Source of the DNA: Porphyromonadaceae bacterium | GTDB taxonomy: Bacteria; Bacteroidota; Bacteroidia; Bacteroidales; Paludibacteraceae | Length of the DNA: 39,693 nucleotides | NCBI GenBank assembly: GCA_012523295.1 | Contig: JAAYIT010000154.1 | Span: forward strand, 1-39,693 | Reading direction: 5' to 3' | Shown: piece by piece, positions 10,144 to 32,412 of the stretch | Position numbering within the stretch: the stretch's first letter is position 1 | How the letters are laid out: each line of letters begins with the position of its first letter | Translations under genes and position numbers: made by a program | Notes under the pieces: model-generated | Told to the model about the DNA's origin: nothing | Seen by the model: the letters and a program-made list of their open reading frames with translations, nothing else | Databases searched by the model: none

Positions 10144-10168
10144 ACGGTTATATTTTATTTTTTAACAC

Positions 10169-10238
10169 TAAGGTCGTATGGAACACGCCATTAACCATTA
10201 TCTTGGGTTTAAGACTTATCTTAAATGGCTGTTTCATA
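10169..10238. repeat. 70-bp palindromic repeat, copy 1 (serC leader)
   Basis: About 90% identical (63 of 70 positions) to a second copy at 31232-31301. The ends form an imperfect inverted repeat, ATGGAACACGCCATT versus AATGGCTGTTTCAT. The inside holds a perfect stem, TTTAAGA-CTTA-TCTTAAA. It lies between the serC -7 box and start codon, so it should be transcribed in the serC leader. Confidence 0.8.
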
Positions 10239-29563: not shown

Positions 29564-29581
29564 GTGTAACCCAAGTTACGC
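29564..29581 (+). promoter_or_regulatory. CRP/FNR-type palindrome upstream of the cupin module
   Basis: GTGTAAC-CCAA-GTTACGC is a 7-4-7 palindrome with one mismatch. The spacing matches CRP/FNR-family operators (5-4-5 core GTAAC-N4-GTTAC). Its centre lies about 41-43 bp upstream of the start predicted from the -7 box, the class II activation position. Confidence 0.6.
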
Positions 29582-29601
29582 TTTGCGACTTATTTAAGAC
29601 T

Positions 29602-29609
29602 TATTTTTG
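29602..29609 (+). promoter_or_regulatory. Candidate -7 box for the cupin-DUF438 unit
   Basis: TATTTTTG is an exact TAnnTTTG match. A TTTG lies at 29582-29585, 16 bp before it, slightly closer than the usual -33 spacing. The leader to the cupin ATG would be about 35-40 nt. Confidence 0.55.
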
Positions 29610-29652
29610 TACTCAATTTCAATTATAACTAAATTAATTAAAGGTAATTTTT

Positions 29653-30000
29653 ATGAAACTTTCTTACGACAAACCGGTAAATCCATTTGAAAAAGGGACA
29701 GTTTTTTCGCTTGAAAATTCAGTTGAATATTCTCAAGGAGGCGTTATTAGCAAACAAATCACGAAATCTCCTGCCGGAAATGTGACTTTATTTTCATTTG
29801 ACGAAGGACAGGGCTTGACCGAGCACACTTCACCTTTCGATGCTATGGTGCATATACTTGATGGTGAGGCTGATATTATTATAGATGGCAAATCAAACAT
29901 TGTGAAAAAAGGAGAATGTATCATTATGCCTGCGGGAATTCCTCACGCACTTCATGCTGTGAAGCCTTATAAAATGCTTTTAACAATGATAAAAGGCTAA
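29653..30000 (+). CDS. Small cupin-domain protein
   Basis: A 115-residue single cupin. The first motif region reads GLTEHTSPFDAMVHILDGEADI, with possible metal-binding His residues; the second is CIIMPAGIPHALHAV. Such small cupins often bind a metal and act as sensors or dioxygenase-like enzymes, but the reaction is not readable. It is 6 bp upstream of the DUF438-hemerythrin gene and shares its CRP/FNR-type promoter, so it is probably part of the same redox or nitric-oxide response. Confidence 0.85.
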   Translation: MKLSYDKPVNPFEKGTVFSLENSVEYSQGGVISKQITKSPAGNVTLFSFDEGQGLTEHTSPFDAMVHILDGEADIIIDGKSNIVKKGECIIMPAGIPHALHAVKPYKMLLTMIKG

Positions 30001-30006
30001 TATTTT

Positions 30007-31215
30007 ATGAATAACAAAAAAGATTTATTGAAACATATGCTCCTTCAGCTTCACGAGGGAGCACCTGCCGAAGTTTTACGAAATAGAATTGTAGAAACTA
30101 TGAGCAGTATTCCGTACCACGAAGTAGTGGAAGTGGAACAAGAACTTATCAGCGATGGAGTCCTTTCTCCGGAGGAAATTCTCGCATTTTGCGATTTACA
30201 TACGGCTGTCTTGGAGGGAAGCATTGATTTAGAAGATGCAAAATCTATTCCTGAAGGTCATCCGGTAGATACATTCAAAAAAGAGAATATCGCTATTCAA
30301 AAAGAAGCAGATAAACTACACGTATTATTCAACAAAGTAAAAGAGATAACAGATGAAAATGTAGCAGATTACATTATCAAAATCAGAACTGTTTTCAATA
30401 CTCTTTGGGATATCGACAAGCATTATAAGCGTAAAGAATACCTACTTTTCCCCTATTTGGAACAACACGGAATTACCGGACCTCCCAAAATAATGTGGGG
30501 AAAACACGATGAAATTCGTGCTTTGCTGAAAGATGTGTACGAAACACTTGACACGCCTAATATCGAAGCTGCTGAAATGGTCCCAATTGTTGATTTGGTC
30601 TTAAAACCTGTGATAGAGCTAATAGAGGGAATGATTATGAAAGAAGAGGAAATTCTCCTCCCAATGTCTATGGACACGCTTACCGAAGAAGAGTGGTATA
30701 AAGTTTATCAAGAAACTCCTGAATTTGGGTTCTGCTTGGTAGATCCTGAAATAGAGTGGAAGCCTGAAGGAATTGTAAAAGAGGAAGTAGCTTTTGTTCC
30801 GGGAGATGCTATCAGATTGTCATCGGGTAATTTTAATTTAGAAGAACTCGAATCATTGTTTGTTAATTTACCGATTGATATTACCTATGTAGATAAAGAT
30901 GATAAAGTAAGGTTTTTCTCCCATAGTCCCAATCGTGTTTTCGAGCGAAATCGCTCTGTTCTCGGGCGTGATGTGCGACTTTGTCACCCACCGGGAAGTG
31001 TCCACATTGTAGAGCAAATCCTGAATGATTTCAAAAGCGGTAAAGAAAATAAAGCTGTATTTTGGATGTCCAATTTTCAAGGAAGATTTATCTACATTGA
31101 CTATACCGCTCTTCGTGATAAAGAGGGGAATTACCTTGGTGTAGTAGAATTTACACAAGATATAACTGAATTACGAAAATTAGAAGGTGATCAACGATTG
31201 CTTTCATACGATTAA
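30007..31215 (+). CDS. DUF438 / hemerythrin / PAS protein
   Basis: A 402-residue protein with three parts. An N-terminal DUF438-like helical region covers about residues 1-90. A hemerythrin-like bundle (about 95-240) carries candidate di-iron ligands in HPVDTFKKEN, HYKRKEYLLFPYLE, KHDEIR and KEEEILLPM. The C-terminal PAS domain (about 275-395, DITYVDKDDKVRFFS...GVVEFTQDITELR) probably senses a ligand or cofactor. Hemerythrins of this kind bind O2 or NO, and this layout is known in anaerobes. With no output domain visible, it may act as a sensor or scavenger. The DUF1858-DUF2249 gene follows. Confidence 0.85.
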   Translation: MNNKKDLLKHMLLQLHEGAPAEVLRNRIVETMSSIPYHEVVEVEQELISDGVLSPEEILAFCDLHTAVLEGSIDLEDAKSIPEGHPVDTFKKENIAIQKEADKLHVLFNKVKEITDENVADYIIKIRTVFNTLWDIDKHYKRKEYLLFPYLEQHGITGPPKIMWGKHDEIRALLKDVYETLDTPNIEAAEMVPIVDLVLKPVIELIEGMIMKEEEILLPMSMDTLTEEEWYKVYQETPEFGFCLVDPEIEWKPEGIVKEEVAFVPGDAIRLSSGNFNLEELESLFVNLPIDITYVDKDDKVRFFSHSPNRVFERNRSVLGRDVRLCHPPGSVHIVEQILNDFKSGKENKAVFWMSNFQGRFIYIDYTALRDKEGNYLGVVEFTQDITELRKLEGDQRLLSYD

Positions 31216-31231
31216 AATTTATTTTTTACAT

Positions 31232-31301
31232 TAAGGTCGTATGGAACACGCCATTAATCATATCCTTAGGTTTAAGATTTATCTTAAATGGCTATTTCAT
31301 A
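31232..31301. repeat. 70-bp palindromic repeat, copy 2
   Basis: About 90% identical to copy 1 at 10169-10238 (same length, seven differences). It lies directly behind the DUF438 gene, next to the left end of a CCCC/GGGG element. Confidence 0.8.
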
Positions 31302-31316
31302 CAGTAAATAACTCAG

Positions 31317-31478
31317 CCCCTCAATCCCCTAAACGGGAAGTATATAAGGGGTAGAATTTAGCTTTGTAAAATTACAATGATTTGAGAAATAAAATCTTCA
31401 TATTATTTGACACGAACCTGAATGAAGCAAAACAGCTCTGAAAATCGAACAGAATTCCCCCTTCAGGTGGAAAGGGGG
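31317..31478. repeat. CCCC/GGGG element spanning the DUF1858 start codon
   Basis: The left end CCCCTCAATCCCCTAAACGGG and the right end CCCCCTTCAGGTGGAAAGGGGG follow the same pattern as the intact element at 24120-24251 when one is reversed. The right end lies inside the reading frame of the next gene. Confidence 0.5.
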
Positions 31479-31985
31479 CAATTATCTATCACTCCCGATA
31501 CAAAAATTAGTGAATTACTGAAGAATTATCCTCAGTTGGAGTCCGTGTTGATAAAGTTTTCTCCCACATTTTCTGCGCTTAAAAATCCGGTGCTTCGTCG
31601 AACTGTAGCCAAGGTAACATCGTTGCAACAAGCTGCTAAAGTGGGAAATGTCTCTGTTGTTGATATGGTTGATAAGCTTCGTTCTGTAGTAGGACAACCA
31701 CCGTTATCCGAAGAAATAGAGATGGGCGAAAATTCAGAATATTCTCCGGAGTTTACTCCCGATAAAATTACACATCACTTCGATGCAAGACCAATTATCG
31801 AAGCCGGTGACCATCCGAAAGATGCCATTTTAGATTTGGCAAACACCATGAAAACAGATGAATGTATAGAAATATTGACACCATTTCCTCCTGTTCCCAT
31901 CGCCGATTTATTGAGAAAGAAAGGTTTTTCGGTTACCATGCTTCAACCGAAAGGGGGTGTTGTGAAAACCTATGTCTCTCGTTAA
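31422..31985 (+). CDS. DUF1858-DUF2249 protein
   Basis: A 187-residue protein. A DUF1858-like helical domain (about 21-85, ITPDTKISELLKNYPQLESVLI) is followed by a DUF2249-like domain (about 115-187, HFDARPIIEAGDHPKDAILDLANTM). Both domains are found with hemerythrin/YtfE-type proteins in nitric-oxide and redox responses, matching the gene upstream. The first 20 residues (MKQNSSENRTEFPLQVERGQ) have no family look; residues 12-20 are encoded by the GGGG end of a repeat element, so the N-terminus seems newly acquired. The true start might lie later; translation from the ATG at 31422 is the open option. Confidence 0.8.
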   Translation: MKQNSSENRTEFPLQVERGQLSITPDTKISELLKNYPQLESVLIKFSPTFSALKNPVLRRTVAKVTSLQQAAKVGNVSVVDMVDKLRSVVGQPPLSEEIEMGENSEYSPEFTPDKITHHFDARPIIEAGDHPKDAILDLANTMKTDECIEILTPFPPVPIADLLRKKGFSVTMLQPKGGVVKTYVSR

Positions 31986-32160: not shown

Positions 32161-32412
32161 ATGGATGCATCTATCTGGACAAATATTATAGGCTATATTG
32201 CCATGACATTATTGGTTATTTCCTTCATTCCCAAGCAAATAAAAACCGTACGGATTGTCAATCTGATTGCTTGTATGTTTTTCGTGGGATACGGTATTTT
32301 ATTAGGCTGGGCATGGCCTATCATCATTTCCAACGTGGCGGTGTGCTGTGTGCAAATTTATCACTTGTTTTTTGCGAAACAAAAACCGAATGTTGAGGTT
32401 ACAGGAAAGTAA
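32161..32412 (+). CDS. Small three-helix membrane protein, PQ-loop/SemiSWEET-like
   Basis: An 83-residue protein with three transmembrane helices (about residues 5-22, 32-50 and 53-72). A P-x-Q-like turn FIPKQIKT follows helix 1. The size and layout fit SemiSWEET sugar transporters or YgjV-like inner-membrane proteins. The turn reads PKQ instead of the usual PQ, so I cannot choose between the two. It has its own promoter box and no operon partner. Sugar transport is a family-level guess only. Confidence 0.65.
   Translation: MDASIWTNIIGYIAMTLLVISFIPKQIKTVRIVNLIACMFFVGYGILLGWAWPIIISNVAVCCVQIYHLFFAKQKPNVEVTGK

Follow-up and report, generated by a model that had tools for sequence, protein, structure and literature searches.

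The window analyzed here is a stretch of 39,693 nucleotides (positions 1 to 39,693 of contig JAAYIT010000154.1, assembly GCA_012523295.1) from a Porphyromonadaceae bacterium of the Paludibacteraceae. It contains three adjacent forward-strand genes that, to judge from their promoter and their relatives, very probably form a nitrosative-stress operon activated by the regulator HcpR. The first gene (29653-30000) encodes a cupin of 115 amino acids (Cupin_2, Pfam E-value 4.4e-11). The second (30007-31215) encodes a protein of 402 amino acids with DUF438 (residues 8-74, 30028-30228, 4.6e-19), a hemerythrin-like domain (residues 85-220, 30259-30666, Pfam Hemerythrin 1.5e-15) and PAS_10 (residues 281-387, 30847-31167, 1.4e-25) in that order, all above the Pfam cut-offs. 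The third, hereafter gene 3 (31422-31985), encodes 187 amino acids with DUF1858 (1.7e-17); its DUF2249 match (2.4e-05, 24.5 bits) falls below the Pfam cut-off of 29.5, and the DUF2249 label is kept because the predicted fold is TusA/SirA-like. The original prediction named the same three genes and domains from the sequence, and open reading frames, Pfam and, for DUF2249, the predicted fold bear it out. The gap between the cupin and DUF438 genes is 6 bp, and that between the DUF438 gene and gene 3 is 206 bp.

Upstream of the cupin gene, TATTTTTG (29602-29609, forward strand) fits TAnnTTTG, which we take to be the Bacteroidetes -7 consensus, and implies a transcription start at about 29614. The center of a perfect GTAAC-N4-GTTAC palindrome, GTAACCCAAGTTAC (29566-29579), lies at -41.5 from that start, the predicted position of a class II activator, and about 80 bp from the cupin ATG. 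The original prediction had described a 7-4-7 palindrome about 42 bp upstream of the predicted start. Its 5-4-5 core is indeed perfect, while one of the seven pairs of the quoted arms is mismatched, and the distance holds when counted from the transcription start that TATTTTTG implies but not from the ATG; the CRP/FNR-family operator at a class II position that it proposed agrees with the sequence. GTAACCCAAGTTAC is identical to the published HcpR2 consensus, GTAACnnnnGTTAC, described upstream of hcp in HcpR2 genomes and tied to Pro 181 of the recognition helix (PMC1274295).

The promoter was compared across orthologous loci, which were the best 80 of 467 encoding a relative of the DUF438 protein (with this protein alone as the query; all are from Bacteroidota) and which together comprise 1,185,212 bases. 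They hold 36 exact GTAACnnnnGTTAC boxes, compared with 3 for the motif read in reverse and 7 for the next of 60 letter orders. Downstream of 28 of these boxes, hcp, frdX, the cupin gene or the DUF438 gene begins within 450 bp on the same strand, and in 27 of the 28 (the exception being L088) TAnnTTTG stands at exactly the -41.5 spacing; the remaining eight exact boxes show it in two cases. TAnnTTTG occurs 618 times in the 1,185,212 bases, so that over 36 boxes a given fixed position would be expected to carry one about 0.02 times. The composite promoter, defined as box, 22 bases and TAnnTTTG, precedes the module or the operon containing it with at most one mismatch overall in 24/80 loci, a lower bound given that L059 and L098 hold an exact composite outside the scanned stretch; shuffled upstream regions yielded none (0/1600). 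Position, -7 spacing and conservation of the operator exceed chance. Over the same 80 loci, and uncorrected for kinship, a box and a nearby HcpR gene occur together in 17, the box alone in 7, the HcpR gene alone in 1 (L098) and neither in 55, and none of the eight loci with an upstream Rrf2 gene has the box.

A promoter-first survey of 295 genomes of the order found 50 exact composites in 41 genomes, and 1 in the control. For 30 loci drawn from the 50 matches, the first recognized downstream gene encodes FrdX in 10, Hcp in 8, NrfH in 1, the window's cupin in 1 and, behind an unrecognized frame of 62 amino acids, a DUF1858-like protein in 1, with no recognized gene in 9. In L144 and L145, FrdX is followed by a cupin of the window's family.

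Matches to the cNMP-binding family in the genome that holds the window (98.69% complete, 417 contigs) occur in two genes, on contigs C17 and C181. The C17 protein, an HcpR (L010:3042-3764), has HTH_Crp_2 and cNMP_binding above cut-off and carries AEYFGVQRPSLAR; by alignment to the CRP helix, we take Pro 181 to lie in its helix GVQRPSLARTL. This helix matches the Pro 181 rule (PMC1274295). Among the 17 HcpR-like genes of the 80 loci, 15 share AEYFGVQRPSLAR, and of the two that do not, one is truncated at a contig end, while L103 reads FGVARPSLAR. Searched as a pattern, GxxRPSxxR is found in 15/20 HcpR-like loci of this genome and its relatives, its own included; the regulator of genome G060 has FGVTRPALAR, and that of the G009 locus FNIPRPSLAR. 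The N-terminus of the window genome's HcpR contains four cysteines (CPDC...CTTC), of which most aligned HcpR-like proteins of relatives keep the last alone (CPLF), and a metal or redox site beside the heme is possible. In G003, a genome of the same genus with no close ortholog of the module and no hcp, an HcpR relative (L156) is split into two reading-frame pieces with altered recognition-helix residues, apparently a decaying regulator.

The original prediction depended on the three genes occurring together in relatives, and they do: in the 80 loci the cupin lies directly upstream of DUF438 in 26 and DUF1858 follows in 59, with hcp nearby in 15, all lower bounds owing to contig ends. Four loci (L039, L042, L043, and L049) have the order hcpR, box, hcp, second box, cupin, DUF438. 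In G060, one box heads a 4Fe-4S protein, presumably FrdX, followed by Hcp, cupin, DUF438 and DUF1858 and, further on, NrfH-NrfA; its Hcp, NrfH and NrfA score above the NCBIfam equivalog cut-offs. Eight genomes with a close ortholog were compared, four with and four without the box. Those with it (the window's own, G058 with one -7 mismatch, G060, and G013 with one box mismatch) have HcpR matches of 4.9e-35 or better. In G001, G004, G007 and G036, no exact or one-mismatch box was found in the stretches fetched, and CRP matches are weak only (best E 1.7e-5 to 5.3e-5); there an Rrf2-family gene lies upstream of RIC-DUF438, and a RIC-type gene adjoins DUF438. A second cupin type occurs in G001, G007 and G036, and a hemerythrin gene in G004, G007 and G036. 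An intact DUF1858 gene follows in seven of the eight close-ortholog genomes, with none seen in G001.

Other sites of the motif in the window's genome were sought, as the original prediction had advised. The exact composite occurs once (controls 0), and allowing one mismatch yields two promoters, that of the cupin operon and one at C181:23451. Only composites with at most one mismatch were used, because sites with three mismatches were rarer than in the control (4+2 vs 12+7). The promoter at C181:23451 heads genes for a Fer2_BFD protein and RIC/YtfE (L009:11798-12777), its box lying at -41.5 with TTACTTTG; the RIC scores 235.7 bits against TIGR03652 (cut-off 204.7). This BFD-like/RIC operon is predicted to be the second HcpR target of the genome.

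These observations are consistent with the following course of events. NO (nitric oxide) would bind the heme of the C17 HcpR, which would then bind GTAACCCAAGTTAC centered at -41.5 and recruit RNA polymerase as a class II activator, and the products of the unit would act in NO defense next to RIC, which has the same promoter type. The product of the DUF438 gene is probably a YtfE-like protein, though a divergent one, that has iron or another cofactor bound and handles NO or NO-damaged metal centers, with the PAS domain as its ligand sensor or docking part; its probable partners are the cupin and the DUF1858/TusA-like protein. The idea of a gas or redox stress unit with a cupin as its first member, put forward in the original prediction, agrees with the sequence and can be narrowed to HcpR and to NO or nitrosative stress, not O2. 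As a prediction, the assignment to the regulon is strong: the sequence itself shows the promoter architecture and its conservation, the matching recognition helix of the regulator and the gene neighborhoods, while NO as the signal in this organism, the cotranscription of gene 3 and all of the biochemistry are what we infer.

Several points weigh against this assignment. One is that the genome has no Prismane-family (hcp) match; neither do seven other genomes of the genus, and within the bacterial family 4/37 genomes have one. The classical HcpR regulon is centered on hcp, and the one predicted here is without that usual core gene. An hcp-based reading of this genome was rejected, as no hcp was detected. 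The missing hcp has no bearing on the cupin operon having an HcpR operator, and an HcpR without detected hcp is predicted to control the cupin-DUF438 unit and RIC. Further, 56/80 loci have no composite within one mismatch, counting L059 and L098 with their exact composites outside the scanned stretch. The association of cupin and box (counts 16/10/8/46, Fisher p 4.6e-05) is not significant once ancestry, by which both are clustered, is considered (median p 0.25 for independent pairs on the tree), and for that reason we do not claim that cupin and box were gained together. Counted by itself, the core palindrome shows no enrichment in the genome (6 sites vs 11 for the reverse-read control, four of the six inside other reading frames), and its count was discarded as evidence. 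Three of the six di-iron ligands of RIC are replaced in the DUF438-hemerythrin-PAS protein, and the D. desulfuricans proteins discussed below, Ddes_1165 and Ddes_1828, are putative counterparts of the window's proteins, likened to them by published description. Lastly, gene 3 could have its own promoter, given the 206-bp gap with its repeat and a -7-like element, TAGCTTTG (31359-31366), about 55 bp 5′ of the gene; no HcpR box lies at -41.5 from this element.

The repeat in that gap (31216-31310) is a copy, of about 86-95 bp, of a dispersed repeat; scoring 40 of 211 candidate places in the genome gave at least 56 matches, counting the query itself. A hairpin fold is predicted for it, and some copies lie side by side; the window has a second copy at 10154-10238, and another (C181:23658-23743) lies downstream of the HcpR-type promoter of the RIC operon, ahead of its BFD-like gene. 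In two relatives (L046:3478-4181 and L050:9168-9839), two small genes lie between DUF438 and DUF1858; the second of these in L050 matches YoeB_toxin (50.0 bits, cut-off 27), and the inserted genes look like a toxin-antitoxin pair. Given the repeat in this genome and the inserted genes in those two, the DUF438-DUF1858 junction may be an insertion hotspot. Beyond gene 3, an open reading frame of 83 amino acids (32161-32412) has a sub-threshold SemiSWEET match (18.5 vs 80 bits).

The iron ligands of RIC are H84, H129, E133, H160, H204, and E208 (PMC9268430). In the DUF438-hemerythrin-PAS protein, the residues at these six positions are N94, H139, K143, H167, M209 and E213, each in 81/81 ortholog rows. 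The correspondence rests on motif anchors and spacing (84-129 equals 94-139, 45 residues; 204-208 equals 209-213, 4 residues), because hhalign, run on RIC and the hemerythrin part of the DUF438 set, matched only 17 columns (probability 20.9%), pairing RIC helix B with DUF438 helix D. With N94, K143 and M209 at ligand positions of RIC, the canonical di-iron site is incomplete, and canonical di-iron chemistry appears doubtful. The protein also departs from the RIC family in its incomplete six-ligand set, an N-terminal DUF438 rather than ScdA_N (DUF542), and a TIGR03652 score of 19.7 (cut-off 204.7). E144 is invariant in the alignment; in L016, outside the 81-row set, Gln replaces H167. Eight paralogs keep N94 and H167 and have Tyr for H139 in four cases and Ile for M209 in six. 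C62 and H65 of the DUF438 domain are found in 81/81 orthologs and 0/8 paralogs, and C326-H327 of the PAS domain in 81/81 orthologs and in the eight paralogs too. The AlphaFold model has a mean predicted local distance difference test score (pLDDT) of 85.9 and a predicted template modeling score (pTM) of 0.68, and its best Foldseek match is PDB entry 3cax, a relative by the family profile (E 5.3e-81) whose match spans the hemerythrin and PAS parts. A paralog with the same domain order is encoded elsewhere in the genome (L028, C314:7393-8304) and in L022, L026 and L027, with 35-38% identity and no exact HcpR box in the locus; the gene upstream of these paralogs is presumably pyrF-like.

It is possible, though not what we would expect, that the hemerythrin-PAS protein is a true di-iron equivalent of RIC that repairs Fe-S clusters, with the cupin as an accessory. 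Ddes_1165 has been proposed as a YtfE equivalent (PMC5701242), and H139, H167 and E213 are kept, E144 is invariant, and the spacings of 45 and 4 equal those of RIC. Against this stand the substitutions at the H84, E133 and H204 positions in every row, the further losses in the paralogs, and a RIC that the genome already has under the same promoter type.

The model of gene 3 (pLDDT 84.6, pTM 0.48) comprises a DUF1858 domain and a TusA/SirA-like domain. Six TusA/SirA-like chains, two of which we take to be TsuA-TsuB, head the VIA list with Z 8.6-10.4 across 69-75 residues, the next unrelated row following at 6.6, while DUF1858-type rows (2fi0, 2k53, and 2k5e) score Z 7.1-7.8, under the tool's safe level; Foldseek found nothing at E up to 0.001. 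The DUF2249 part is, on this model, of TusA/SirA-like fold, and the fold shows no function. Gene 3 has a single cysteine, C148, common to 9/44 rows, and 15/44 rows have no cysteine. Its DUF1858 part has none, and any cysteine occurs there in 1/44 rows. Given these scarce cysteines, a redox disulfide like that named for TIGR03980, a related domain, seems unlikely, as does a conserved persulfide of the TusA type, and the conserved sulfur-carrying cysteine that marks a TusA sulfur carrier is missing from gene 3. The ScdA_N domain of the genome's RIC has a sub-threshold DUF1858 match (20.7 bits, cut-off 32.2), a hint that the first domain of gene 3 may be kin to it. In the cupin, H58 and H98 are present in 28/28 rows, and its PDB sequence matches include 3rns and 1yhf.

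A more specific version of the HcpR assignment, which we regard as unlikely to hold in all its parts, is that the module provides Hcp-independent NO defense in lineages with HcpR and without hcp. The DUF438-hemerythrin-PAS protein would then be a non-di-iron, NO-handling cofactor protein (mononuclear iron or heme) that works with the cupin and a DUF1858/TusA-like protein without the usual redox cysteines, and its candidate ligands would be H139, H167, E144, E213, M209, and the invariant C62-H65 and C326-H327 pairs.

Improbable, by our assessment, is that another CRP/FNR regulator, such as that of C181, binds the operator and that the unit answers O2 or general redox conditions instead of NO. 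The second CRP-type gene lies on the contig of RIC, and the Foldseek matches of the 402-residue model include heme PAS domains of FixL; both hemerythrin and PAS domains have known roles in O2 sensing as well. The C181 protein, however, has NMTTSNAIRTL at the recognition helix instead of RPSLAR, a difference for which its regulation of the unit was rejected, and the box is the published HcpR2 motif and precedes hcp or frdX in relatives. Hardly credible is a box that arose as a chance palindrome before a constitutive or otherwise controlled operon, for which the six core sites against 11 in the control would speak, whereas the composite occurs once exactly against none in the controls of this genome, 50 times against one over 295 genomes, and in 0/1600 shuffled regions.

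HcpR control of the unit would have consequences beyond this locus. Hcp is the best known HcpR target for NO defense in anaerobes, and here HcpR is present and hcp undetected, its predicted targets being a small set of uncharacterized proteins and RIC. DUF438, DUF1858, DUF2249 and a cupin family become testable as NO-stress functions, and a promoter rule for HcpR targets in Bacteroidota emerges, in which the box is centered at -41.5 from the start set by TAnnTTTG.

In the open-licence literature searched, no description was found of the cupin-DUF438-DUF1858 unit, of its fixed promoter geometry or of its occurrence without hcp; a hemerythrin-PAS protein linked to NO and an hcp-adjacent cupin are already in print. 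In P. gingivalis, HcpR is a heme-binding, NO-responsive protein (PMC12750200). The genes most strongly induced by nitrite in B. thetaiotaomicron include hcp and nrfA, and hcp expression there depends on HcpR (PMC13370916, preprint). In the available text of a C. difficile HcpR study, a putative site lies only before frdX-hcp among the changed genes (PMC12915319). A DUF1858 protein is listed in a table of the NnrR regulon of Bradyrhizobium (PMC6710368). Genes induced by NO in D. desulfuricans include Ddes_1165, which encodes a hemerythrin-PAS protein (log2 fold change 1.98), the cupin gene Ddes_1828 (4.4) and the adjoining hcp, Ddes_1829 (3.17), and transient nitrite induction of DVU2590 is cited alongside the proposal for Ddes_1165 (PMC5701242).

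Among these systems, Ddes_1165 resembles the window protein in its hemerythrin-PAS make-up, its induction by NO, and the spacings (5 and 28) of its reported H234/E239/H262, which equal those of H139/E144/H167; in the available portion of that report, an operon with a cupin and DUF1858-DUF2249 is not reported (PMC5701242). DrpB of Thermus likewise has DUF1858 joined to DUF2249, in a nitrate-respiration cluster, but contains two DUF2249 domains, and the accessible part of the paper does not mention a link with a cupin or DUF438 (PMC6282519). RIC/YtfE/ScdA share the hemerythrin-like four-helix domain (PMC9268430), whereas the window protein has DUF438 and PAS instead of ScdA_N and three of six iron ligands replaced. 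The uncharacterized PF0695 of Pyrococcus furiosus (3cax) shares the hemerythrin-like and PAS parts, with Asn where the window protein has N94 and Met at the position of M209, but has Glu at the K143 position and its match starts after the DUF438 domain. For most Bacteroides species, P. gingivalis and some others, the HcpR2 regulon has been predicted to consist of hcp only, and hemerythrin-like genes belong to extended HcpR regulons in delta-proteobacteria and clostridia (PMC1274295). From the HcpR2 regulon the present one differs in that hcp was not detected and its promoters precede the cupin-DUF438 module and the BFD-like/RIC operon, whereas its operator consensus and Pro 181 helix are those of HcpR2, and in some relatives the module itself adjoins hcpR, hcp, and frdX.

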